In this document: positions 1-21,137 of the stretch, one piece after another
How the letters are laid out: each line of letters begins with the position of its first letter
Position numbering within the stretch: position 1 is the first letter of the stretch
Origin: Caldanaerobius polysaccharolyticus DSM 13641
Lineage (GTDB): Bacteria; Bacillota; Thermoanaerobacteria; Thermoanaerobacterales; Caldanaerobiaceae
Direction: 5' to 3'
DNA: 64,000 nucleotides
Assembly: GCF_000427425.1 (NCBI RefSeq)
Contig: NZ_KE386495.1
Span: 857,072-921,071, forward strand
Notes under the pieces: generated by a model
What the model saw: the letters and a program-made list of their open reading frames with translations, nothing else
Databases searched by the model: none
What the model was told of the DNA's origin: nothing
Program-made: the position numbers and the translations under genes

Positions 1-276
1 TCTATGTTTGTTAACGCTCTTGAAAAAGGTGTATCACGAATGATGTTAAATATTATTTATAAAGCTGAGGAACAAGAAAGAACAGCTGAAAAATATGGAG
101 AGATGTTTAAATCATGGTGGTTGATTTATCACATTGCTCGATTAGATGAAAGGTATAAAAACACAAAAGATATTATAAATAACATTAAGGATGCATTACT
201 GGAAAAAGGAAATTTACTTTATAAACATACTTATCTTGCGTGCCGTTGGGCAGAAATGGAGACAAGAAATGAATAA
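1..276 (+). CDS. csm1: Cas10/Csm1, C-terminal end only (partial)
   Basis: Open frame running in from the window edge and ending at TAA 274-276, so only about the last 91 residues of the type III-A large subunit are visible. The helical stretch with AEEQERTAEKYGEMFKSWWL followed by IYHIARLDERYK resembles the C-terminal helical domain of Csm1. Identity rests mainly on position: csm2, csm3, csm4 and csm5 follow in canonical order on the same strand with short gaps. The HD nuclease and the GGDD cyclase motif of Cas10 would lie upstream of the window, so whether this copy can make cyclic oligoadenylate cannot be judged here. The ATG at 4 is an internal Met, not a start. Confidence 0.8.
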   Translation, partial: SMFVNALEKGVSRMMLNIIYKAEEQERTAEKYGEMFKSWWLIYHIARLDERYKNTKDIINNIKDALLEKGNLLYKHTYLACRWAEMETRNE

Positions 277-294
277 ATGACGGGAGGGGTAGAA

Positions 295-738
295 ATGCCA
301 AATGATGGTGTAAGTGTAAAAGATAAAAAAAATAAAGAATTAGATGAAAAGATAAATGAAATTAAAAACAAAATAATGGAAAAAATTAATGATGCCATTG
401 ATGTAGAAAGAGATCCTAAAGGTGATGTTTTTTTGTTCTGTGCTCAAGAAACCGGCAGATTGCTTGCTTTGAAAGATGTGAGCGTATCGCAAATAAGAAA
501 GGTTTATAGTGAGGCAAGGAGAATTAAATACAATGAAGATGGAATTTATAGACTAAAAATTTTAGAGGCTATGCTCGCATATATGGCAGGTAGGTTTAAT
601 AAACAACTTAAAGAATTTAAAGATATTTTTACAAAAGCTATTAGAATAGCAGAAAAAAACGATGACAATTTAAAGAGATTTATTGACTTTTTCCAAGCTG
701 TTATTGCTTATCACAGAGCATTTGGTGGCGATGAGTAA
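295..738 (+). CDS. csm2: Csm2, small subunit of the type III-A complex
   Basis: 147-residue, Lys/Glu-rich, all-helical-looking protein in the csm2 position between csm1 and csm3. The C-terminal stretch FIDFFQAVIAYHRAFGG is typical of Csm2, which lines the crRNA-target duplex as repeated small subunits. I chose ATG 295 because GGGAGGGG at 282-289 sits at proper spacing from it; an in-frame ATG at 277 has no such site. The gene starts 19 nt after the csm1 stop, so it is probably in the same operon. No catalytic role is known for the family. Confidence 0.85.
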   Translation: MPNDGVSVKDKKNKELDEKINEIKNKIMEKINDAIDVERDPKGDVFLFCAQETGRLLALKDVSVSQIRKVYSEARRIKYNEDGIYRLKILEAMLAYMAGRFNKQLKEFKDIFTKAIRIAEKNDDNLKRFIDFFQAVIAYHRAFGGDE

Positions 739-762: not shown

Positions 763-1566
763 ATGGAAGAGTTAAAGTTTCAGGGTAAATATATAATAAC
801 TGCTGATATAGTGGCTAAGACAGGATTACATATAGGTTCTTCTGAGAGCAGCCTTGAAATCGGTGGTGTGGATAATTCGGTTATAAAGGATGCTCAGGGA
901 AGGCCTTATATCCCGGGCAGCAGTTTAAAAGGTAAAATGAGGGCGTTGATGGAGTATGCTGAAGGCCTTATAAACCCAGATAATTTAGTTTTTACGGTTG
1001 AGAAAAAAGACAACAAAGAAGAAAGTATAAGAATTCACATGTGCGATAAAGTGGATTGTCCTGTTTGTAATATTTTTGGAAGGAATCACGGAAATCATAA
1101 TTTTGTCAATGGCGGTCCAAAAAAGATTGATAGTGTAATAACCCCTACAAGATTGATTGTAAGGGATGCTTATTTGATTGAGGAAAGTATTACTAAAGAG
1201 ATGAAAGAGAATCTTGATTTAGATTGGACGGAGGTAAAGTTTGAGAACAATCTAGATAGAATAACATCCAATGCAAATCCTAGGCAAACAGAAAGGGTTC
1301 CGGCCGGAGCGCGATTTGAAGGACAGTTTATTTTAAATGTGTTAAATGACGAAGGAACAAAGTATTTAAAAAAATTGCTTGAAGCCATGGAGTTGTTAGA
1401 AGATGACTACCTGGGTGGGCAGGGAAGTAGAGGATATGGAAGAATTGCTTTTGAAAATTTAAAAATTGTTTTTAGAAGCAAGGAGTTTTATGAAGGTACA
1501 AAAGACGAAGAGATAGTAACTCAAAATTGTGATTGCATAAGAGAGGCATTAAATAAGTTAAAGTGA
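763..1566 (+). CDS. csm3: Csm3, Cas7-like backbone subunit and target-RNA nuclease
   Basis: 267-residue RAMP (RRM-fold) protein. In this family repeated Csm3 subunits form the complex backbone and cut target RNA every 6 nt using a conserved Asp. Visible signatures: the N-terminal motif GLHIGSSESSLEIGGVDN, with Asp37 as the likely catalytic residue; the glycine-rich RAMP motif GRPYIPGSSLKGKMRA; a Cys cluster CDKVDCPVC (probable zinc site); and a second Gly-rich loop GGQGSRGYGRI near residue 220. ATG 763 follows a GGTGGAGGTG ribosome-binding site. It sits 24 nt after csm2 and 10 nt before csm4, consistent with one operon. Confidence 0.93.
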   Translation: MEELKFQGKYIITADIVAKTGLHIGSSESSLEIGGVDNSVIKDAQGRPYIPGSSLKGKMRALMEYAEGLINPDNLVFTVEKKDNKEESIRIHMCDKVDCPVCNIFGRNHGNHNFVNGGPKKIDSVITPTRLIVRDAYLIEESITKEMKENLDLDWTEVKFENNLDRITSNANPRQTERVPAGARFEGQFILNVLNDEGTKYLKKLLEAMELLEDDYLGGQGSRGYGRIAFENLKIVFRSKEFYEGTKDEEIVTQNCDCIREALNKLK

Positions 1567-1576
1567 GGATGAAAAA

Positions 1577-2521
1577 ATGAAGTCATACAGAGTAAAATTG
1601 AAATTTAAAGGACCTGTCCACTTTGGGTACAAGGAGAAGATGGATAATGTGACTGAATACATAGTTCATTCAGATACACTCTTTAGCGGTATCTTGAACT
1701 GTTATTCGCTCTTATATGGCAAGAAAAGGACAGATGAAATCGTAGAGAGAGTTTTATGTGAAGATCTGCCCTTTAAGTTATCATCCGCTTTTTTATATAT
1801 AGATGAAGAGTATTTAATTCCTAAACCGATTAATTTGGATTTATCTGCTGTAGTAGGAGATTTTAAGAAAGCTAAAAAAATTAGGTACGTGCCGTTAGAT
1901 TATAGCTATAAACAAGCCAAAAGTGAGGTTTACATAAAAGGACCTATAATGATAACCAAGAACTATGATAGGATTTTCAGCATTGATGAAAGGCCCAGGG
2001 TGACATTGGATAGAATTGAGCACAGTAGCGAGATTTATTATTTAAGTAGTTGTACGTTTGGTGAAAATGTAGGATTATGGTTTTATCTAGACGTTTATGA
2101 CACAGGTATAGAAAAAGAAATACAGGCAGCAATCAGATTGCTGGGGGACGAAGGATTAGGGGGCGAAAGAACATATGGATTCGGTTTATTTTGTGTAGAT
2201 TTCTGCGAAGAAAAAGATAATTTTGATTTGGAGTCTGATCAATATCTCCTTCTGTCTTTGTTTCTTCCGTCCGAAGATGATGATTTAAAAGACGGTTTAA
2301 TAAGCTATGAGCTTACTGAAAGAGGAGGTTATGTATACTCTCCTTTTAGTTCAAACCTGAAGAAGAAAAAGGTAAGGATGTTTTTGGAAGGCAGTGTATT
2401 TAAGAAAAAATATAATGGTAAAATTGCTGATGTAACACCAGATAATTTTAATACGCATAAAGTTTTAAGATATGGTATTCCATATTGGAAGCCTATTTTA
2501 CTTTCTGGTCAGAGGGGTTGA
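1577..2521 (+). CDS. csm4: Csm4, Cas5-like subunit binding the crRNA 5' tag
   Basis: 314-residue RAMP protein between csm3 and csm5. It starts KSYRVKLKFKGPVHFGYKE, the usual Csm4 opening, has the internal HSDTLFSGILN motif, and carries a Gly-rich loop LGDEGLGGERTYGFG around residues 192-206. Csm4 caps the crRNA 5' repeat tag and contacts Cas10. Length and order are normal for type III-A. The ribosome-binding site is GTGAGGATG just upstream, and the stop is 4 nt before the csm5 start, indicating close translational coupling. Confidence 0.92.
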   Translation: MKSYRVKLKFKGPVHFGYKEKMDNVTEYIVHSDTLFSGILNCYSLLYGKKRTDEIVERVLCEDLPFKLSSAFLYIDEEYLIPKPINLDLSAVVGDFKKAKKIRYVPLDYSYKQAKSEVYIKGPIMITKNYDRIFSIDERPRVTLDRIEHSSEIYYLSSCTFGENVGLWFYLDVYDTGIEKEIQAAIRLLGDEGLGGERTYGFGLFCVDFCEEKDNFDLESDQYLLLSLFLPSEDDDLKDGLISYELTERGGYVYSPFSSNLKKKKVRMFLEGSVFKKKYNGKIADVTPDNFNTHKVLRYGIPYWKPILLSGQRG

Positions 2522-2525
2522 TGGA

Positions 2526-3662
2526 GTGAGGTACGAATTGGAAGTGATATCGCCGTTAAATATAGGAAACGGCACAAGGATTAAAGATTTCGAGTACTTT
2601 TTTAGGAACGGCAGGGTTGAGTATATAGATATTTACAAGCTTGTAAAGGATGTTAGTAAAAACGAAAAAAGAGCTGATTATCTCATAAATAGCTTCAATC
2701 GACAGGATTTTAGATGGAGTGAAATAAAAGAAAAGATTGGGCTTGAAAATTTGGATAAATATATTTCTGTAGTTTTAGAAGCTAACGGGATTACAGATGT
2801 AAAAGGAGAAATTATACCAGTAATTAAAAGTGCCGGGAGGCCTTATATTCCTGGATCTTCAATAAAAGGGGCGATAAGATCTTCAATTACAAGAAGTATT
2901 TGGGAAGATGCAGGTACATATTATAAAAATCAAATAGATTATACTATTAGAAAGAAAAATAATCCTAAATATAAATTAGACCCCAAAAAATTAGATGATA
3001 AAGCAGAAGAAAAGGTGTTTGGAAAACCACATAATTCACCGTTCAGATATCTAAAGATTTCTGACAGTGATATTTTGTCTAATGATAGTCTTAATATATA
3101 TGAAGTTAAAATAATGAATATATGTAATGATAGAGTTAAATGGTTTAGCCTAAATAAAAACTACGATAAAAGCGAAGAGGCACTATCGGTTTATATAGAG
3201 GCTTTTAAAAGGGGGACCAAGACATATGGCAGTTTTAATCTGGATAAAAAAATATGTGATAGTTTTATGGTAATAGAAGGTAACATTGTAAATTACCAGA
3301 TACTTAAGATGTTTAAAAAGCTGATAAGGGAGGATATAAATAGATATATAGAAGAGGAGATTGTTTTCTTTACGAAATATGGTTTAACTGAAATTGTAGA
3401 TTTTTATAAAAACATTAAGATACGAAATGATGAATTAAGAGAAAATGAGATTATGATTCAAATGGGTTTTGCTACGGGATATTTAGGCAAGACTGTCGGT
3501 AATTATCTTAATAAGAGTATAAAAGACATTGAAAAATTGAAATTGGTTATGCCACGGACTAAAGTGTATACTCCACTGTTTCCTAAGACGAGGAGAATAA
3601 TTTTCAAAAATGGGAAACCTGATTGCGTGCCAGGGTGGATTAAACTGACATTTGAAGGATGA
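2526..3662 (+). CDS. csm5: Csm5, crRNA 3'-end RAMP subunit
   Basis: 378 residues if started at GTG 2526, preferred over an upstream in-frame ATG at 2472 because GAGGGG (2512-2517) lies at proper spacing and the protein then begins RYELEVISPLNIGNG, the normal Csm5 N terminus. The Gly-rich motif GRPYIPGSSIKGAIRSSI is the RAMP signature shared with Csm3. Csm5 binds the crRNA 3' region and recruits housekeeping nucleases for trimming in characterised systems. The stop at 3660-3662 is followed directly by the site for the next gene. Confidence 0.92.
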   Translation: MRYELEVISPLNIGNGTRIKDFEYFFRNGRVEYIDIYKLVKDVSKNEKRADYLINSFNRQDFRWSEIKEKIGLENLDKYISVVLEANGITDVKGEIIPVIKSAGRPYIPGSSIKGAIRSSITRSIWEDAGTYYKNQIDYTIRKKNNPKYKLDPKKLDDKAEEKVFGKPHNSPFRYLKISDSDILSNDSLNIYEVKIMNICNDRVKWFSLNKNYDKSEEALSVYIEAFKRGTKTYGSFNLDKKICDSFMVIEGNIVNYQILKMFKKLIREDINRYIEEEIVFFTKYGLTEIVDFYKNIKIRNDELRENEIMIQMGFATGYLGKTVGNYLNKSIKDIEKLKLVMPRTKVYTPLFPKTRRIIFKNGKPDCVPGWIKLTFEG

Positions 3663-3666
3663 TAAG

Positions 3667-4365
3667 ATGAGCGTTGTCAAGTTAAGATTGGAATTTCATT
3701 TAAATGATAATTTCTTTTTCGATAGAGGATATAAGCAAATTTTATCCGACTATTATTATGAGATTATAGGAAATAGATTGTTTGTTTTTTCGGACATAAT
3801 ACCCCAAAAAAAGAAAAACTCTGATGATGGTTTTTGGGCGATAGAAAAAGCTGCATTTGATTTTTCTACGGTACCTACTGAAAAACTATTAAATGTAGCA
3901 ATGAATACCATGAAAAAACCTATACAGTTCAAATATGGTTCATTGGAGATAAAGAAGGTACGTTTTTTAAAAATAAAGCTAGAAAATAAAGCTTATACTT
4001 TGTCTCCAATTATAGTTTTTAAAAATGGTAATCCATTACTGTATGAAGAGAATCCTATATATTTCAGCGAAGTTTTAAGGGAGATTTTAATTTTCAAGTA
4101 TAAAAATTTATTTGGTGTTTATCCCCAGGATGACCGATTTGTTTTTTATTTTAAAAACAAACCTCTTAAAGAAGAAATAAATGGATTTCCAGTTTATAAA
4201 GGTTGTTTTGAAATAATTGGTTCTAAAGATCTTATTAAACTTTCATATAATACAGGGCTTGGTAATTTTAATGAACTGGGTTTCGGAATGATATCAAGTG
4301 ATTTGTATTTTTGGAAAAAATCAACTGACACAAAGTTGAAAAATAATAACGGAAATAGTAGTTGA
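3667..4365 (+). CDS. cas6: Cas6-family RAMP protein, type III-associated copy
   Basis: 232 residues from ATG 3667 (GAAGGATG just upstream; an in-frame TTG at 3652 overlaps csm5 and is less likely). The C-terminal Gly-rich loop NTGLGNFNELGFGMI is the Cas6 signature. Cas6 cuts CRISPR precursor RNA within the repeat. Oddity: the usual N-terminal His-containing segment, seen as LHDEGY in the second copy at 8812-9606, is absent, and the only His I find is His11. This copy may therefore be non-catalytic, use another residue, or act mainly in RNA binding. It is the last RAMP gene before the CARF effector and lies in the csm operon. Confidence 0.8.
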   Translation: MSVVKLRLEFHLNDNFFFDRGYKQILSDYYYEIIGNRLFVFSDIIPQKKKNSDDGFWAIEKAAFDFSTVPTEKLLNVAMNTMKKPIQFKYGSLEIKKVRFLKIKLENKAYTLSPIIVFKNGNPLLYEENPIYFSEVLREILIFKYKNLFGVYPQDDRFVFYFKNKPLKEEINGFPVYKGCFEIIGSKDLIKLSYNTGLGNFNELGFGMISSDLYFWKKSTDTKLKNNNGNSS

Positions 4366-4379
4366 GGAGGTTTTTTATT

Positions 4380-6110
4380 ATGATAAAGTTTTTTTCTTTT
4401 TTAGGAACTAACAGATATATCCCATGTAATTACTATCTGGGAGATGCTAGAGCAGAAAACGACAGTTATGTCCAACTAGCTCTGTTGAAAGTACTTCATA
4501 TTAAAGGTGTTGTGCCTTCCAAAGTGATTGTATTTACAACGAAAAAGGCCGTTGAACAAAACTGGGTACAAAATGCGTATGACAAAACCCTCCCTGGGCT
4601 TTACGAAGCGTTATGTAATCTTGATTTTATACCAGGAACAGTTAATAATTTAGTAATTCCTGAAGGTAACAATGAAAAAGAACTATGGGCGTTATTTGAT
4701 ATAATAATGGGAGAAATAGACGAAGGAGATGAAATAATATTTGATATAACTCATTCGTTTAGGTTTCTTCCTATGCTAGCTTTTATAGTTTTAAATTATG
4801 GACGAGTTGTTAAGAAAGCTCAGATTAAAGCCGTTTATTATGGAGCATTTGAAACATTGGGTTCAACCAGAGATGTTGAAATGATGCCTATAGAAAAAAG
4901 GAACGCACCGATTTTCGATTTGACCCCTTTTATAGATGTTTTTGATTGGACTTTAGGAGTAGACAGATATTTGAATACAGGTGATGTATCGATTATACAT
5001 AATTTAACTCAAGCTGGTGTAAAAGGAATAAATAGCGAAATTTCTGCTATGGATGTTAAAGATAAAAAAGTAATGTTTAGAAATGTAAGTCAATTAAAAA
5101 TACTGGCTGAAAATATGAAGAAGTTTAGTGATGTTGTATTTACGTGTAGAGGGAAAGAATTGGATAAAACAGCTTTAGAGTTAAAGAAAACTATAGATAC
5201 CGTGCTTGAAAGTGCCGTTTATACATATCTTAAACCTTTGTCTCCTGTACTAAACATGTTAAATAGTAAATTTGGCAAATTTGGAGAAAATAATTATGCT
5301 AATTTACTAAATATTTGCGAATGGTGTTTAGATAATAGAATGTATCAACAAGGTTTAACCTTATTAGAAGAAGGAATTGTAAGTTATCTTTGCAATAAAA
5401 ACGAGTTAAACCAAAATGAACAATCTCATAGAGATATTATAAGCGCATGTAGTGCGGTGCTTCACGGAAAAAAGTTAAAGCAAGAGTATGAAAAGGATAG
5501 ACATATTATAGATTCTATAATCCAGAATTCCAAGAACCATGCTTTGTTAAAATTGCTTTATTCAATTGCTTCTGTCAGAAATGATATTAATCATGCAGGG
5601 TGGAGAAATAATCCAGGGAGTCCGAGTATTTTTGAAAAACAGCTAAGAGATTTTATAGACAAGGCTCGTTCTATTCAACATGATAATAGTGAATCCGTTT
5701 GTGTTAAGCCTAGGCGTATGCTTCTTATAATTTCACATTCCATTACTCCAGAACAGGAGAAAGAAGCAAGGACACAATTAGGGATTGATGAGTTTGTGAT
5801 GCTAGAACCAAATCTTTTAGAGAGATGGTCTAATATACCGCCTGATGTTCATTTACTGTATGATCATTTGGAAGGCCTATTTAAGTGGATTGATAAAAAT
5901 GCATGTGATGGAGATTATGTTCTGGTTCAAGGCGATTACGGGGCTACGTTTATGGTCGTAGATTATTGTATGGCCAGGGGGATAAAACCTGTTTATGCTA
6001 CTACCCAGAGAAAGGTTAAAGAAGAAATATCAGGAGATAGCATTATTGCTACTAGGGAGTTTAGACATGTTATGTTCAGAGAATATAGACGACATGGTCA
6101 GTTAATTTGA
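4380..6110 (+). CDS. CARF-HEPN ribonuclease with C-terminal Csx20-like domain
   Basis: 576 residues; ATG 4380 is preceded by GAGGAGG (4364-4370), better than the in-frame TTG 4362. Three blocks are visible. (1) N-terminal CARF sensor of the Csx2/TIGR02221 type with DITHSFRF at about residue 122. (2) HEPN ribonuclease domain with the R-x4-H motif RNDINH near residue 400. (3) An extra 130-residue C-terminal domain from about residue 445, with LLIISHSITPEQ, then GDYVLVQGDYGATFMVV and IKPVYATTQRKV, which resembles the small stand-alone Csx20 family. CARF-HEPN enzymes degrade RNA when Cas10 supplies cyclic oligoadenylate, and Csx20 is among the proteins reported as ring nucleases degrading such messengers. 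Inference: one polypeptide senses, acts and may terminate the signal. It ends the csm operon and abuts array 1. Confidence 0.85.
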   Translation: MIKFFSFLGTNRYIPCNYYLGDARAENDSYVQLALLKVLHIKGVVPSKVIVFTTKKAVEQNWVQNAYDKTLPGLYEALCNLDFIPGTVNNLVIPEGNNEKELWALFDIIMGEIDEGDEIIFDITHSFRFLPMLAFIVLNYGRVVKKAQIKAVYYGAFETLGSTRDVEMMPIEKRNAPIFDLTPFIDVFDWTLGVDRYLNTGDVSIIHNLTQAGVKGINSEISAMDVKDKKVMFRNVSQLKILAENMKKFSDVVFTCRGKELDKTALELKKTIDTVLESAVYTYLKPLSPVLNMLNSKFGKFGENNYANLLNICEWCLDNRMYQQGLTLLEEGIVSYLCNKNELNQNEQSHRDIISACSAVLHGKKLKQEYEKDRHIIDSIIQNSKNHALLKLLYSIASVRNDINHAGWRNNPGSPSIFEKQLRDFIDKARSIQHDNSESVCVKPRRMLLIISHSITPEQEKEARTQLGIDEFVMLEPNLLERWSNIPPDVHLLYDHLEGLFKWIDKNACDGDYVLVQGDYGATFMVVDYCMARGIKPVYATTQRKVKEEISGDSIIATREFRHVMFREYRRHGQLI

Positions 6111-6268: not shown

Positions 6269-7366
6269 GTTTTAATCGGACCAGTATGGAATTGAAATTA
6301 ACAAGCGGATTCAAGTTAGAAAGGGCTGGAGGTTAGTTTTAATCGGACCAGTATGGAATTGAAATGTTTACAAGTATTTTATTAAAGTTCTACTATTAAA
6401 AAGTTTTAATCGGACCAGTATGGAATTGAAATGCGCTTGGGGGCTGATACAAAATGACAATCAATGGCAGTTTTAATCGGACCAGTATGGAATTGAAATT
6501 GTAATAGTCAGAAAATTCATACAATAAAATCCTCTTTGTTTTAATCGGACCAGTATGGAATTGAAATGACTTGCCGATGATAGAAAAGCGAGGGCAAGGG
6601 AAGTTTTAATCGGACCAGTATGGAATTGAAATGCACCCAGTACCAGTCGCCGTTTGGAGCCTGCCATGTTTTAATCGGACCAGTATGGAATTGAAATAGA
6701 ATAGCCCTTAACATCTTCAAAAAGAATTACACTCAGTTTTAATCGGACCAGTATGGAATTGAAATTCTTTTTTTGTGCACAAAAAATAGGCCCGAAGGGC
6801 CAGTTTTAATCGGACCAGTATGGAATTGAAATCTGCATGATAAGCAGTTGTGATATATACTACATACGTGCCTGGTTTTAATCGGACCAGTATGGAATTG
6901 AAATCTTGCCAGCCGCAAGCATCCCTCACGGCCAGCATATAGTTTTAATCGGACCAGTATGGAATTGAAATTTAATTATGATGTTTATTATATCATCATA
7001 TCCTGCTGTTTTAATCGGACCAGTATGGAATTGAAATATGAGAAGCAAAGCATGACCCTCTTTACCAAAAATAGTTTTAATCGGACCAGTATGGAATTGA
7101 AATGGGAAGACGTATGCTTCGCCCACCCCGGCCACCTCTGTTTTAATCGGACCAGTATGGAATTGAAATGAAGTAGCATACAACTCATTCAACCTCTGGA
7201 ATGCAGTTTTAATCGGACCAGTATGGAATTGAAATGCGATTTCCCCTGCTAAAAGAAGCTTTTTAACCAAGTTTTAATCGGACCAATATGGAATTGAAAT
7301 AAGCTTTCACCCAATCCCACGTTGTTGACGGTGAAGGTTTCAATCGGACCATTGCGGAATTGAAAG
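6269..7366 (+). CRISPR. CRISPR array 1: 17 repeats of 30 nt, 16 spacers
   Basis: Repeats start at 6269, 6336, 6403, 6470, 6538, 6603, 6668, 6736, 6803, 6875, 6942, 7008, 7074, 7140, 7206, 7271 and 7337. The consensus begins GTTTTAATCGGACCAGTA and ends TGGAATTGAAAT. Spacers are 35-38 nt except one of 42 nt (6833-6874). The repeat 3' end ATTGAAAT matches the usual 5' crRNA tag, so transcription is on the plus strand away from the leader. Repeat 16 has one change (CCAATA). Repeat 17 (7337-7366) is GTTTC...CCATTG...GAAAG, i.e. it resembles the array 2 repeat. Short minus-strand reading frames with repeated FQFHTGPIKT across this stretch are artefacts of the array. Spacers here look more GC-rich than those of array 2. 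Confidence 0.99.
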
Positions 7367-7532: not shown

Positions 7533-8762
7533 ATGAAAAATATATTAATCTCTTTAATTGGGCGTGGGAGAAAACCAGATGGAGGTAAAGGATATATAAA
7601 AACGAGGTATAGTTTTGATAATGGTGAATATATAAGCGATGAAACGGCTTTTTTTGGTTCAGCATTGTATAGATACTTAGTAGGTAGAGGTTATGATATT
7701 GATAAGTGGATTATATTTGGTACTAATACTTCAACCTGGTCTGAAATTATTGAAGCAGTAAATAGCGTTCAACATGAAAGATTAGAAGAGATGTATTATA
7801 AAGTCTTAGATGAAGAAGAAAATGGGATAACTGATAAAACATTGAAGCAGTGGGAATGCAATATAAGCAATTTTATAAATGTAAATCTCGTCGCGGTTGA
7901 TCCTTTAGATTATAAGGCCTATATCAACGTGTTGTTAAATATTATAACTGCTGGAGATGAATATAAAATCTTTTTTGACATGACTCACGCTTTCAGACAT
8001 ATGTCTACTGTTTTATCTTTTTCATTGATGTATTTAAAATACCTTCGAGATATTAAAAATATTGAAGTATACTATGGAGCTTTGGATATGGCAAAAGATG
8101 CTGTTAAACCCGTTTTAAAAATTGACTTCATAAATGAACTGTTCTCATTATCTACTTCTTTTGATCTGTATAAAAACTCCGGGTACTTTCCTGAAATATT
8201 AAAAGATCTTGGAATTTCAAACAGGGAAAATACATATTTCAAACTGGAACTAAATAGAAATCCAAGAAATGAGTTAAGAGAAATAGTAAAAGAATTGGAG
8301 AAAATAGTGGGAAGCGATAACTACAAAACAGAAACCGCACTATGCATTAAAAATCAACTGAGCAGATTATATGAGTTAAAGTATTTAGATGAAAGAATGG
8401 TAGAGAGGGCGAAATTTTTCTTTGACAAAAAGCAGTATTTAAAAGCACTGGTGTTGCTTTATGAGGCCATAATCATACTGGCGGGAAGGGCATATCAGAT
8501 CCCAGATAAGCAAAATTACGAGAAAAGAGAAGAGAGCAGAAGAAGGATAAAAGAAGAAATAAAAGGTATTAGAGATAGAAAATTCATAAAAAGAGAGAGG
8601 ATGGGAGAGGTTTTTAATCTTTTAGAATATACGAGAAATGCAGCGGTACATGGCTCTGATCCGCAGGGTATTCAGGAATATTTAGAGCAGCGTTCGTATT
8701 TTGAAAGTTTGTTTAATGAAGCGCTGGACATTTATCACGAAATAAGCAACAGTCTTAGTTAA
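7533..8762 (+). CDS. CARF-HEPN ribonuclease (Csx1/Csx2 family), no extra domain
   Basis: 409 residues; ATG 7533 with GGAGG 7521-7525. The N-terminal CARF domain carries DMTHAFRH at about residue 149, the counterpart of DITHSF in the 4380-6110 protein. The C-terminal HEPN domain has R-x4-H as RNAAVH (Arg368-His373). Proteins of this kind are RNases switched on by cyclic oligoadenylate from Cas10. Unlike the first effector, it ends soon after HEPN and has no Csx20-like tail. It sits between array 1 and the type I-B genes, separated from the csm operon by the array, and is probably transcribed with the second cas6 (49-nt gap). Confidence 0.87.
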   Translation: MKNILISLIGRGRKPDGGKGYIKTRYSFDNGEYISDETAFFGSALYRYLVGRGYDIDKWIIFGTNTSTWSEIIEAVNSVQHERLEEMYYKVLDEEENGITDKTLKQWECNISNFINVNLVAVDPLDYKAYINVLLNIITAGDEYKIFFDMTHAFRHMSTVLSFSLMYLKYLRDIKNIEVYYGALDMAKDAVKPVLKIDFINELFSLSTSFDLYKNSGYFPEILKDLGISNRENTYFKLELNRNPRNELREIVKELEKIVGSDNYKTETALCIKNQLSRLYELKYLDERMVERAKFFFDKKQYLKALVLLYEAIIILAGRAYQIPDKQNYEKREESRRRIKEEIKGIRDRKFIKRERMGEVFNLLEYTRNAAVHGSDPQGIQEYLEQRSYFESLFNEALDIYHEISNSLS

Positions 8763-8811: not shown

Positions 8812-9606
8812 ATGCGCGTAAAGATATGTTTTAGACCGGAAAAAGAAGTGGAGATTATTGATATTAATTATAACTATTATATAACATCAATGATATACAA
8901 TTTATTGTCAAAGTCAAATAAGGAGTTTACAGATAAATTGCATGATGAAGGCTATAGATTGGGCTCCAGGCACTTTAAGTTGTTTACTTTTTCTCAGCTC
9001 AAAGTAAAGAAATACATCGTAGAGGAATCGAAAATTAAAATCATGGATGATGCTTTGCTATACATAGGATCTCCTAGGCTTGATTTTTTATATTATTTGT
9101 CTGATACCCTTCTTAAGGCAGAGAGAATTAAAATTGGCAGTGGCTTTTTTATTGTTGATCATGTGGACCTACTGAGAAATGTGAGATTTTCAAGAGAGGA
9201 GAGATTTTACTGCCTTTCTCCAATAACGACTTCAACAATGGAAGTTATAGGCAATGTGAAAAAGGAGAGAAATGTAGATATAAGGGACAGCAAATTTATT
9301 GACAATTTAAAGAACAACCTTATAAGAAAATATTATCTGTTGTACGATCGGCTCCCTGAAGATATGAACATAGACATACATTTTGACGAAGAGTATTTGA
9401 GCAACATAAGAGGAAAGCTGATATGGTTTAAAAACGTGGCGGTAAAGGGCTATTCTGCACCTTTTACTATAAAGGCTGATCCTGAGATCATAAAAGTGGC
9501 TTATGAATGTGGCCTGGGAGATAAAAATAGCGCTGGTTTCGGCATGATTGAAATAGACAGAAAAAATAGAGTGGGATTGGATAATGTATGTGATAGCGGT
9601 GTATGA
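8812..9606 (+). CDS. cas6: Cas6, CRISPR repeat endoribonuclease (type I-B copy)
   Basis: 264 residues; ATG 8812 with GCGGAGG. This is a full-length Cas6: N-terminal LHDEGYRLGSRHFKLF places His44 at the position expected of the catalytic His, and the C-terminal Gly-rich loop is CGLGDKNSAGFGMIE. It cuts precursor RNA in the repeat to leave the 8-nt ATTGAAAT-type tag. Because the two arrays' repeats differ at only three bases, this enzyme could plausibly process both. The 3' end overlaps the cas2 start by 23 nt in another frame, so the two are translationally coupled. Confidence 0.93.
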   Translation: MRVKICFRPEKEVEIIDINYNYYITSMIYNLLSKSNKEFTDKLHDEGYRLGSRHFKLFTFSQLKVKKYIVEESKIKIMDDALLYIGSPRLDFLYYLSDTLLKAERIKIGSGFFIVDHVDLLRNVRFSREERFYCLSPITTSTMEVIGNVKKERNVDIRDSKFIDNLKNNLIRKYYLLYDRLPEDMNIDIHFDEEYLSNIRGKLIWFKNVAVKGYSAPFTIKADPEIIKVAYECGLGDKNSAGFGMIEIDRKNRVGLDNVCDSGV

Positions 9607-17194: not shown

Positions 17195-20100
17195 GTTTCA
17201 ATCGGACCATTGTGGAATTGAAATATATTTCCACCAGTTCCGCCTCCAAAGTTGCCTGTATGTTTCAATCGGACCATTGTGGAATTGAAATAAAAACGGT
17301 TCTACAATTTTTTCTTTTATGCTTTCGTTTCAATCGGACCATTGTGGAATTGAAATATGAAATTATGCGTACCCACCTAGAAGGTATAATAAAAGTTTCA
17401 ATCGGACCATTGTGGAATTGAAATGTAGAAAGTCTTAAAGATAAAATTGTAGAACCATTCTGTTTCAATCGGACCATTGTGGAATTGAAATTAGACAAAC
17501 CTCCAATTTATTAATATTAATGATATTGTTTCAATCGGACCATTGTGGAATTGAAATACGATTTGCTTACATTTTTTACATTTCAGGTAGACACGTTTCA
17601 ATCGGACCATTGTGGAATTGAAATTACAAAATATCAATGCTTGTCTGATCTCTTTGCTCCAAGTTTCAATCGGACCATTGTGGAATTGAAATAGAAAAAG
17701 TAGCTGCAACAATTGTCAATGCGATTTGGTTTCAATCGGACCATTGTGGAATTGAAATAAAATTTTTACACGGTTTGTTGCGTTATTGTCGTTTGTTTCA
17801 ATCGGACCATTGTGGAATTGAAATTGAGCAACTAAATACATATGCTTGTTTGATATATCAAGTTTCAATCGGACCATTGTGGAATTGAAATTGGAAATCC
17901 TGTTCTTTAATTTCCTCGTTTGATCTAAGTTTCAATCGGACCATTGTGGAATTGAAATGAGTAATCTGTTTGCCTTCCAATTGGGACTTTGTAGTTTCAA
18001 TCGGACCATTGTGGAATTGAAATAGTGAAAACAGCCACAACAACAGTAGCAAGTACACTTGTTTCAATCGGACCATTGTGGAATTGAAATGTAGTGATAA
18101 AACTTACATATGGTAATACATCTTTTAGTTTCAATCGGACCATTGTGGAATTGAAATGGAGTATAAGAAACAGGGATATGGTGTGATAAAAGTAGTTTCA
18201 ATCGGACCATTGTGGAATTGAAATTTTAAGTCGTACCACATCTTTTCATATCTCATCTTCGTTTCAATCGGACCATTGTGGAATTGAAATCTGATAGACT
18301 ACGAAAACGGAAGAACGATACCGAGTTTCAATCGGACCATTGTGGAATTGAAATCCTTGTAAATTATTACAAGATACCTATCTAACCCAAGTTTCAATCG
18401 GACCATTGTGGAATTGAAATTTTAATAAATGTTTAATAAATATTTTTAATGCATCAGTTTCAATCGGACCATTGTGGAATTGAAATCAATTTCTTCTATG
18501 TCAACATCATCATTCAACATATGTTTCAATCGGACCATTGTGGAATTGAAATAACATAGGAACAGAAACGTTCCTGTGTGTTGAAACGGGTTTCAATCGG
18601 ACCATTGTGGAATTGAAATGAATATTTAAGATGAGATAAAAAATCTTGTTGACAGGTTTCAATCGGACCATTGTGGAATTGAAATACTACCTTCTTCCTT
18701 GCTCTCTCCAGTATCCATGGAGTTTCAATCGGACCATTGTGGAATTGAAATTGGTCAACTATATTGTGCCATCTGTTTTTCTCATGCGTTTCAATCGGAC
18801 CATTGTGGAATTGAAATACAGGTTTTTGTATATTGTTAATTCATATACAGCTGGTTTCAATCGGACCATTGTGGAATTGAAATGGATTAAGTTGGGATAT
18901 ATAAGTACCTAATATACTAGTTTCAATCGGACCATTGTGGAATTGAAATAGTAGATGTGGAATTTGATATTAGGGATGATGCGACTAGTTTCAATCGGAC
19001 CATTGTGGAATTGAAATTGTTATAGCTAATAGAGTTGGATATTTAGATACTACTGTTTCAATCGGACCATTGTGGAATTGAAATGAAACAAGACTTTCAT
19101 CCATACGATAATACAAGCAAGTTTCAATCGGACCATTGTGGAATTGAAATCAATAATAATCACCATCTATTTCAACAACATTATCTGTTTCAATCGGACC
19201 ATTGTGGAATTGAAATAAAGCTGATACAACGGCGACTGCGTATTTCCAGCATGTTTCAATCGGACCATTGTGGAATTGAAATATATCCCTCCATTTTTAT
19301 TAGTATATCAATATTTCGTTTCAATCGGACCATTGTGGAATTGAAATGTTGCGTAGAAACTTATATCCGTTACATCGTAATCGTGTTTCAATCGGACCAT
19401 TGTGGAATTGAAATAGTTGTTGTATTTCCTTATTTAATTCTTCTTCATATGTTTCAATCGGACCATTGTGGAATTGAAATTTATGAAAATTAATATATAA
19501 ATTCCCGTCTTCTAAATAGTTTCAATCGGACCATTGTGGAATTGAAATGCAACGCAATCGAAAAAGCAGGTGCTTGCTGTGGCGTTTCAATCGGACCATT
19601 GTGGAATTGAAATAAATTATCCACAAAACTTACTAGAGTACCAGGATTCGTTTCAATCGGACCATTGTGGAATTGAAATAATTTAAGAAGGCAAAAATAA
19701 AAAGCTAAAGAATTTTTGTTTCAATCGGACCATTGTGGAATTGAAATGAGCTGTAGGTAAAACATGCAATCTCAATCTAATATCGTTTCAATCGGACCAT
19801 TGTGGAATTGAAATTACAATAAATTTATTTTTTGATAATGATAAAGCGGGGTTTCAATCGGACCATTGTGGAATTGAAATACGTTACACGTGGAATGTGC
19901 ATTTGAGCGATGACCCGTTTCAATCGGACCATTGTGGAATTGAAATATATTAGAATTATTTAATAAATATCCTTTAGACTGGTTTCAATCGGACCATTGT
20001 GGAATTGAAATGATCGGCTACTTTTTCTCTTTCGACATACAAAATGCGTTTCAATCGGACCATTGTGGAATTGAAATAAAAAACAAATTAAGGAAATACA

Positions 20101-21137
20101 AGAGAGATTGAATAGGTTTCAATCGGACCATTGTGGAATTGAAATGAGTGATCGACGCTTACAGATGGAATACATTGTAAAGTTTCAATCGGACCATTGT
20201 GGAATTGAAATGCTGTTGTCAGAGGCCCTTCTTTTGCTGGAGAATGTGGGTTTCAATCGGACCATTGTGGAATTGAAATAGTGAAAACAGCCACAACAAC
20301 AGTAGCAAGTACACTTGTTTCAATCGGACCATTGTGGAATTGAAATGTAGTGATAAAACTTACATATGGTAATACATCTTTTAGTTTCAATCGGACCATT
20401 GTGGAATTGAAATGAATATTTAAGATGAGATAAAAAATCTTGTTGACAGGTTTCAATCGGACCATTGTGGAATTGAAATACTACCTTCTTCCTTGCTCTC
20501 TCCAGTATCCATGGAGTTTCAATCGGACCATTGTGGAATTGAAATATGAAAAAAGGTTATATCAGAACTGCTTCAAAGGATGGGTTTCAATCGGACCATT
20601 GTGGAATTGAAATACATAATCTAATACTCTATAAAGTAATTCCATTCATGTTTCAATCGGACCATTGTGGAATTGAAATCTACAGTACGTTAATAAAAAT
20701 CATGCGAGAGCAGGGAGCAAGTTTCAATCGGACCATTGTGGAATTGAAATAGAGCAGAAAATAAAGTTTATAATTGGTTAAAAGAAAGTTTCAATCGGAC
20801 CATTGTGGAATTGAAATATTATGACAAGACAATGACCCTCTTTGCCAAAAATACCGTTTCAATCGGACCATTGTGGAATTGAAATGTTTTTCCCTAAAGA
20901 TGCTTCACCTATCGATTTGAGTGTTTCAATCGGACCATTGTGGAATTGAAATATGCAAGGTGCAGGATACAGAAGGACTTCATCTATGTTTCAATCGGAC
21001 CATTGTGGAATTGAAAGAAACTATAACAGCCAAATTACCATAAGTTTACAAATGTTTCAATCGGACCATTGTGGAATTGAAATAGTATAAAAGGTAGAGG
21101 GATTCATAAAGGTTTAAAAAGTTTCAATCGGACCATT
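17195..21137 (+). CRISPR. CRISPR array 2: 59 full repeats plus a truncated 60th
   Basis: 30-nt repeats start at 17195, 17262, 17327, 17395, 17462, 17528 and so on every 64-71 nt to 21054. The consensus starts GTTTCAATCGGACCATTG and ends TGGAATTGAAAT. Repeat 58 (20988-21017) ends GAAAG; a final 17-nt repeat fragment is at 21121-21137. Spacers are mostly 34-38 nt and AT-rich; one is 41 nt (20680-20720). Four spacers occur twice exactly. The outer arms TTTCAAT/ATTGAAA are complementary and CCA-TTG-TGG forms a small central hairpin. Plus-strand orientation follows from the leader and the ATTGAAAT tag. It should serve the adjacent I-B genes and possibly the type III complex too. Reading frames with repeated FQSDHCGIEI or RTIVELK inside it are artefacts. 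Confidence 0.99.
20250..20515 (+). repeat. Duplicated spacer block within array 2
   Basis: Four successive spacers at 20280-20316, 20347-20383, 20414-20449 and 20480-20515 are identical to those at 18024-18060, 18091-18127, 18620-18655 and 18686-18721. In the leader-proximal copy, seven further spacers lie between the second and third. The simplest explanation is a segmental duplication with loss of the seven intervening units in one copy through repeat recombination. Confidence 0.95.

Follow-up and report, generated by a model that had tools for sequence, protein, structure and literature searches.

The 64,000-nucleotide stretch of the Caldanaerobius polysaccharolyticus DSM 13641 genome analysed here (the window; contig NZ_KE386495.1) carries an open reading frame (ORF) at 4380-6110 on the forward strand that encodes a CARF sensor, a HEPN ribonuclease and a Csx20 ring-nuclease-like domain in one polypeptide of 576 amino acids. 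This CARF-HEPN-Csx20 architecture is real, intact and already catalogued. The protein is likely to be a self-limiting ribonuclease that is activated by cyclic tetraadenylate (cA4) and carries a Csx20 off-switch; we infer the cA4 ligand, the catalysis by the tail and the regulatory outcome. The ORF runs uninterrupted from an ATG at 4380 to a stop codon ending at 6110, and a Shine-Dalgarno-like gaggagg lies directly 5' of the ATG. The first-pass annotation of this DNA had placed CARF (DITHSF) and HEPN (RNDINH) motifs and a tail on a single polypeptide, and both motifs and coordinates were right. An assembly error was ruled out as the origin of the fusion, since a single ORF also encodes it in a genome of the same genus (92% identity) and in about a dozen further loci of Bacillota.

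All three parts of the protein were recognized by family profiles or motifs. The CARF domain matches TIGR02221 (E=2e-29, 103 bits, cut-off 76) and TIGR02549 (DxTHG; E=3e-11), and its DxTH motif is DITHSF at residues 122-127. The HEPN Rx4-6H motif is RNDINH at residues 400-405. The string RNDINHAGW is identical in 12 of the 12 fused ORFs checked, including that of the window, and R400, N401 and H405 are invariant in the alignment. The tail, residues 447-569, matches the Csx20 profile NF040559 over its complete length (positions 1-124), scoring 147-150 bits where the curated cut-off is 70 (E=4e-43 within the full protein and 3e-44 for the tail alone), and the PADLOC Csx20 models agree. The resemblance of the tail to stand-alone Csx20 proposed in the first-pass annotation was right. 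The PADLOC model PDLC01843 (CARF2--CARF_HEPN_CSX20) aligns residues 2-569 with its positions 3-498 of 498 (E=5e-173) and outranks all plain Csx1 models. The protein has no significant match in Pfam, so that a search of Pfam alone would miss the fusion. Sequence searches of the PDB with the full protein and with the tail returned nothing significant, and a comparison of folds was therefore needed.

Modelled alone, the tail adopts a Crn1-like Rossmann fold with a predicted local distance difference test (pLDDT) score of 94.6. Among solved structures, the Crn1 ring nucleases Sso2081 and Sis0455 match the tail best (Foldseek ranks 1-3; VIA Z 7.5), and Crn1 is likewise the structural neighbour reported for Csx20 in PMC12409355. 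The modelled fold would be weak evidence by a Z of 7.5 alone; its agreement with the sequence family is what counts. The full-length model has a pLDDT of 86.8 and a predicted template modelling score of 0.59, so that the position of the tail against the remainder of the protein is uncertain. The closest solved fold to this model is the Marinitoga Csx1-Crn2 (PDB 8y6z and 8y7g, Z 21.0 and 20.0), in keeping with the analogy to Csx1-Crn2 drawn in the first-pass annotation, and Csx1 6qzt matches at Z 18.6.

Conservation within the tail was assessed by comparing 13 fused tails with 23 stand-alone Csx20 domains, which share 14 invariant positions. The window tail keeps 12 of these (H453, Q459, W483, P488, Q517, G518, G521, A522, Y539, R544, F561 and H563), every polar one included, and also has the nearly invariant T541, R567 and Y569. 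The two exceptions are Ile455 at an invariant Leu and Glu476 at an invariant Pro. H453, Q459, W483, G518, G521, A522, Y539, R544, F561 and H563 are kept in all 13 fused tails, and Q517 and P488 in 11 of them. Comparison of the window with the relative from the same genus gave ratios of nonsynonymous to synonymous substitution rates (dN/dS) of 0.14 in the tail, 0.16 in CARF, 0.19 in HEPN and 0.50 in the short linker; in four other pairs (dS below about 1.3) the tail gives 0.12-0.22. Mean pairwise identity is 0.55 for the tail, 0.57 for CARF and 0.48 for HEPN. The tail is under purifying selection, and it is as conserved as CARF and more conserved than HEPN.

Two of the related fusions (L004:8001-9755 and L014:7814-9571) encode nearly identical effectors that differ sharply from the linker onwards. 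Their nucleotide identity is mostly 0.9-1.0 as far as the linker (residues 430-440), where it drops to about 0.75 without recovering in the rest of the gene, a sequence pattern that suggests that the Csx20 tail was swapped by recombination, with the motif retained in both versions. The kept residues, the low dN/dS and this retention of the motif are read as selection for a working tail. In a third fusion (L013:1756-3489), which comes from a metagenome assembly, a stop inside the Csx20 tail interrupts the ORF; error and decay are alike possible.

Stand-alone Csx20 has been shown to act as a cA4 ring nuclease that is weak on cyclic triadenylate (cA3) and does not cleave cyclic hexaadenylate (cA6) (PMC12409355). 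The first-pass annotation had counted Csx20 among the families reported to degrade cyclic oligoadenylate, and the cleavage of cA4 has since borne this out; a test of the tail on cA6 is expected to be negative. In the proposed mechanism, the III-A complex would recognise target RNA, whereupon Cas10, through its GGDD motif, would make cyclic oligoadenylate. Binding of cA4 to the CARF dimer would switch on the HEPN ribonuclease, and the C-terminal Csx20 domain would bind the same cA4 and cleave it to linear products. With cA4 being cleaved by the tail, ribonuclease activity should fall once synthesis stops.

Several points weigh against this mechanism. The CARF domain of the fusion may itself cleave cA4, and the literature searched, as far as its text was available, yielded no biochemistry on any Csx1-Csx20 fusion. 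The Z of 7.5 between tail and Crn1 lies at a level where a shared arrangement alone is possible. The Pro found in 23 of 23 stand-alone Csx20 domains is Glu476 in the window and is kept in 3 of 13 fusions; with Glu476 for Pro and Ile455 for Leu, the affinity or rate of the tail may differ. Residues conserved in Csx20 are not yet catalytic residues, and the available text on Csx20 names none.

An unlikely alternative is that the tail binds cA4 without turnover and adjusts the ribonuclease threshold, serving as a sponge, as a second sensor or as an oligomerisation module. Csx15, a candidate ring nuclease by its grouping with Csx16 and Csx20, at first seemed almost inactive and has later been shown to form oligomers when it binds cyclic nucleotide (PMC12409355 and PMC13148439), and the otherwise invariant Pro is lost in most fused tails. 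However, the invariant polar residues are all kept, and stand-alone Csx20 is catalytic (PMC12409355). It is less probable still that the tail is an inactive relic, merely a structural or dimerisation extension of the ribonuclease. Degeneration of fused domains is possible as a general point, but this tail is conserved to the degree described above, with a dN/dS of about 0.14 and invariant candidate active-site residues, and the sharply different L004 and L014 tails both retain the motif. Similarly improbable is a main target other than cA4, such as cA3 or a linear or modified oligoadenylate, which the degradation of cA3 by Csx20 at high enzyme concentration (PMC12409355) would favour.

A cA4-cleaving tail would also concern a second CARF-HEPN effector in the window (7533-8762), which lacks a ring-nuclease tail and matches PADLOC CARF2--CARF_HEPN PDLC01827 with E=2e-170. 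Homologues of this effector (41-47% identity) are present just upstream of the fusion in 9 of 14 fused loci (L005-L013), a count that includes the near-copies L007 and L009; in L003 and L016 the upstream sequence is too short for a judgement. In these nine loci the partner gene overlaps the fusion or sits within about 60 nt of it, and RN(A/S)AVH is kept in 9 of 9 partners; in the window and in the same-genus genome the partner lies downstream. The fused loci yielded no second Csx20 ORF. The pairing of the fusion with a tail-less CARF-HEPN partner is conserved. Since cA4 diffuses freely, the tail should serve both ribonucleases, and one ring-nuclease domain probably resets the two: degradation of free cA4 by the Csx20 tail should switch off the second effector too. 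On balance, we favour a conserved two-ribonuclease module in which one ring nuclease, held 1:1 with one ribonuclease, resets both. By the same judgement the fusion would be the first characterised Csx1-Csx20, a self-limiting effector with an origin separate from that of Csx1-Crn2 and overlooked by surveys with a size limit.

The fusion gene closes a type III-A csm operon, in which csm2-csm3-csm4-csm5-cas6 precede it on one strand (Table 1). The genome has a single full-length Cas10 match, Csm1/Cas10, with an HDIGK motif at residue 31 and an intact GGDD cyclase motif at residue 593. A putative cas2 and a putative type I-B-like gene set are located 3' of the second cas6. The locus has two different cas6 genes, one with the III-A genes and the other beside the type I-like genes. 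It also has a second, longer CRISPR array at 17195-21082, with 59 repeats found (GTTTCAATCGGACCATTGTGGAATTGAAA), whose repeat is 3 bases off that of the first array. The two Cas6 proteins might serve the two repeat variants. No stand-alone Csx20 was found elsewhere in the genome. The Crn2 profile (PF08960/DUF1874) had no match in the genome while its control matched; Csx15 and Crn1 were not searched for. The Csx3 and Csx16 profiles had no match in the genome, but their controls gave none either.

Table 1. Features of the fusion gene and its type III-A locus (window coordinates)
Feature	Coordinates	Strand	Basis
CARF-HEPN-Csx20 fusion ribonuclease (Csx1 group), 576 aa	4380..6110	+	Open ORF; full-length PADLOC CARF_HEPN_CSX20, E=5e-173
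CARF sensor domain, residues 1-183; DITHSF at 4743-4760	4380..4928	+	TIGR02221, TIGR02549, fold similarity to cA4-binding CARF domains
Helical linker and HEPN ribonuclease part, residues 184-430; RNDINH (Rx4H) at 5577-5594	4929..5669	+	Motif conservation, Csx1 fold
Linker, residues 431-446	5670..5717	+	Low model confidence at about 436-442; length varies among relatives
Csx20 ring-nuclease-like domain, residues 447-569	5718..6086	+	NF040559, kept conserved residues, Crn1-like modelled fold
csm1/cas10, 3' end; full gene 780 aa, mostly upstream of the window (L002:11934-14276)	1..276	+	TIGR02578
csm2	277..738	+	PF03750 / TIGR01870
csm3	763..1566	+	TIGR02582, E=3e-67
csm4	1577..2521	+	TIGR01903, E=4e-101
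Putative csm5	2472..3662	+	Position in the operon, which is conserved among related loci
cas6, first copy, immediately 5' of the fusion gene	3652..4365	+	TIGR01877, E=1e-17
CRISPR array that separates the two effector genes	6269..7364	+	17 repeats, of which the last are degenerate
Second CARF-HEPN effector, 409 aa, DMTHAF and RNAAVH, without ring-nuclease tail	7533..8762	+	TIGR02221, E=5e-25; PADLOC PDLC01827
cas6, second copy, after the second effector	8812-9606		Profile match

One scan of species genomes retrieved 14 loci (L003-L016) with the fusion or pieces of it, all from Bacillota where named. The fusion is a single ORF in 12 of them, among which L003 is cut off before its first residues by the end of the contig; the ORF is broken in L013 and incomplete in L016. 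About a dozen Bacillota fusions are 42-49% identical to that of the window, and the complete locus is present, with unchanged gene order, in the same-genus genome. Among 398 sampled genomes of the phylum, Csx20 was detected above cut-off in 28 and was fused in 5 of these (ORFs of 564-607 amino acids), the window's own genome included. Within the class, Csx20 occurs in 25 of 37 genomes, and it is fused only in the two genomes of this genus. Stand-alone csx20 genes often adjoin csx1 in either order: the two are separate, often overlapping or abutting neighbours in L024, L029, L037 and L021 and, in the opposite order, in L025, L033 and L042. A phage collection gave no match to the Csx20 tail, and the sole near-full-length match among plasmids is from Persicobacter, where csx1 (annotated csx2) and csx20 are two distinct genes side by side. 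A tree of the Csx1 part places the fusions together in a single group with support of 94/91, which is not decisive. The tail tree needs two changes, with the long-branched L033 inside the fused tails, and a single clade is not rejected (approximately unbiased test, p-AU 0.21). With the Csx1 parts in one group and the tails nearly so, the simplest reading of these trees is one Bacillota lineage that arose by a single fusion event and then spread.

The first-pass annotation knew of no characterised CARF-HEPN-Csx20 protein. This stands, as no characterised Csx1-Csx20 protein was found in the available text of the open full-text literature using the name Csx20; the architecture itself, however, had already been catalogued as PDLC01843, which has the same domain order as the fusion and for which no tested member was found. 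The PADLOC name CARF_HEPN_CSX20 presumably derives from the 2020 classification of CARF proteins. If the proposed mechanism is true, the fusion adds another example, based on a different ring nuclease, of an off-switch built into an effector, and it argues for selection of a fixed ratio of ribonuclease to ring nuclease. The survey in PMC12409355 was limited to ring nucleases of at most 250 amino acids, so fusions were not counted there. Surveys with this ceiling would undercount the loci capable of degrading cA4, a point that matters for the question whether type III signalling leads to recovery or to cell death.

Compared with stand-alone Csx20 (NF040559; PMC12409355), the fusion tail is the same domain with nearly all invariant residues in common, whereas it has a fixed 1:1 ratio to the ribonuclease and, in most fusions, one invariant Pro replaced. 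Crn4 fused to Csm6-2 or TIR-SAVED (PMC12830947) likewise places a ring nuclease at the C-terminus of an effector, but Crn4 is a different ring nuclease family with a broader substrate range. The Marinitoga Csx1-Crn2, which behaves in vitro as a self-limiting effector (PMC7293037), also combines, on a single chain, a CARF-HEPN ribonuclease and a C-terminal ring nuclease for cA4, and its locus, like the window, has a second predicted cA4-activated enzyme beside the fusion (PMC7293037). Unlike that protein, the fusion described here has a Csx20 tail (NF040559) and not Crn2/DUF1874.
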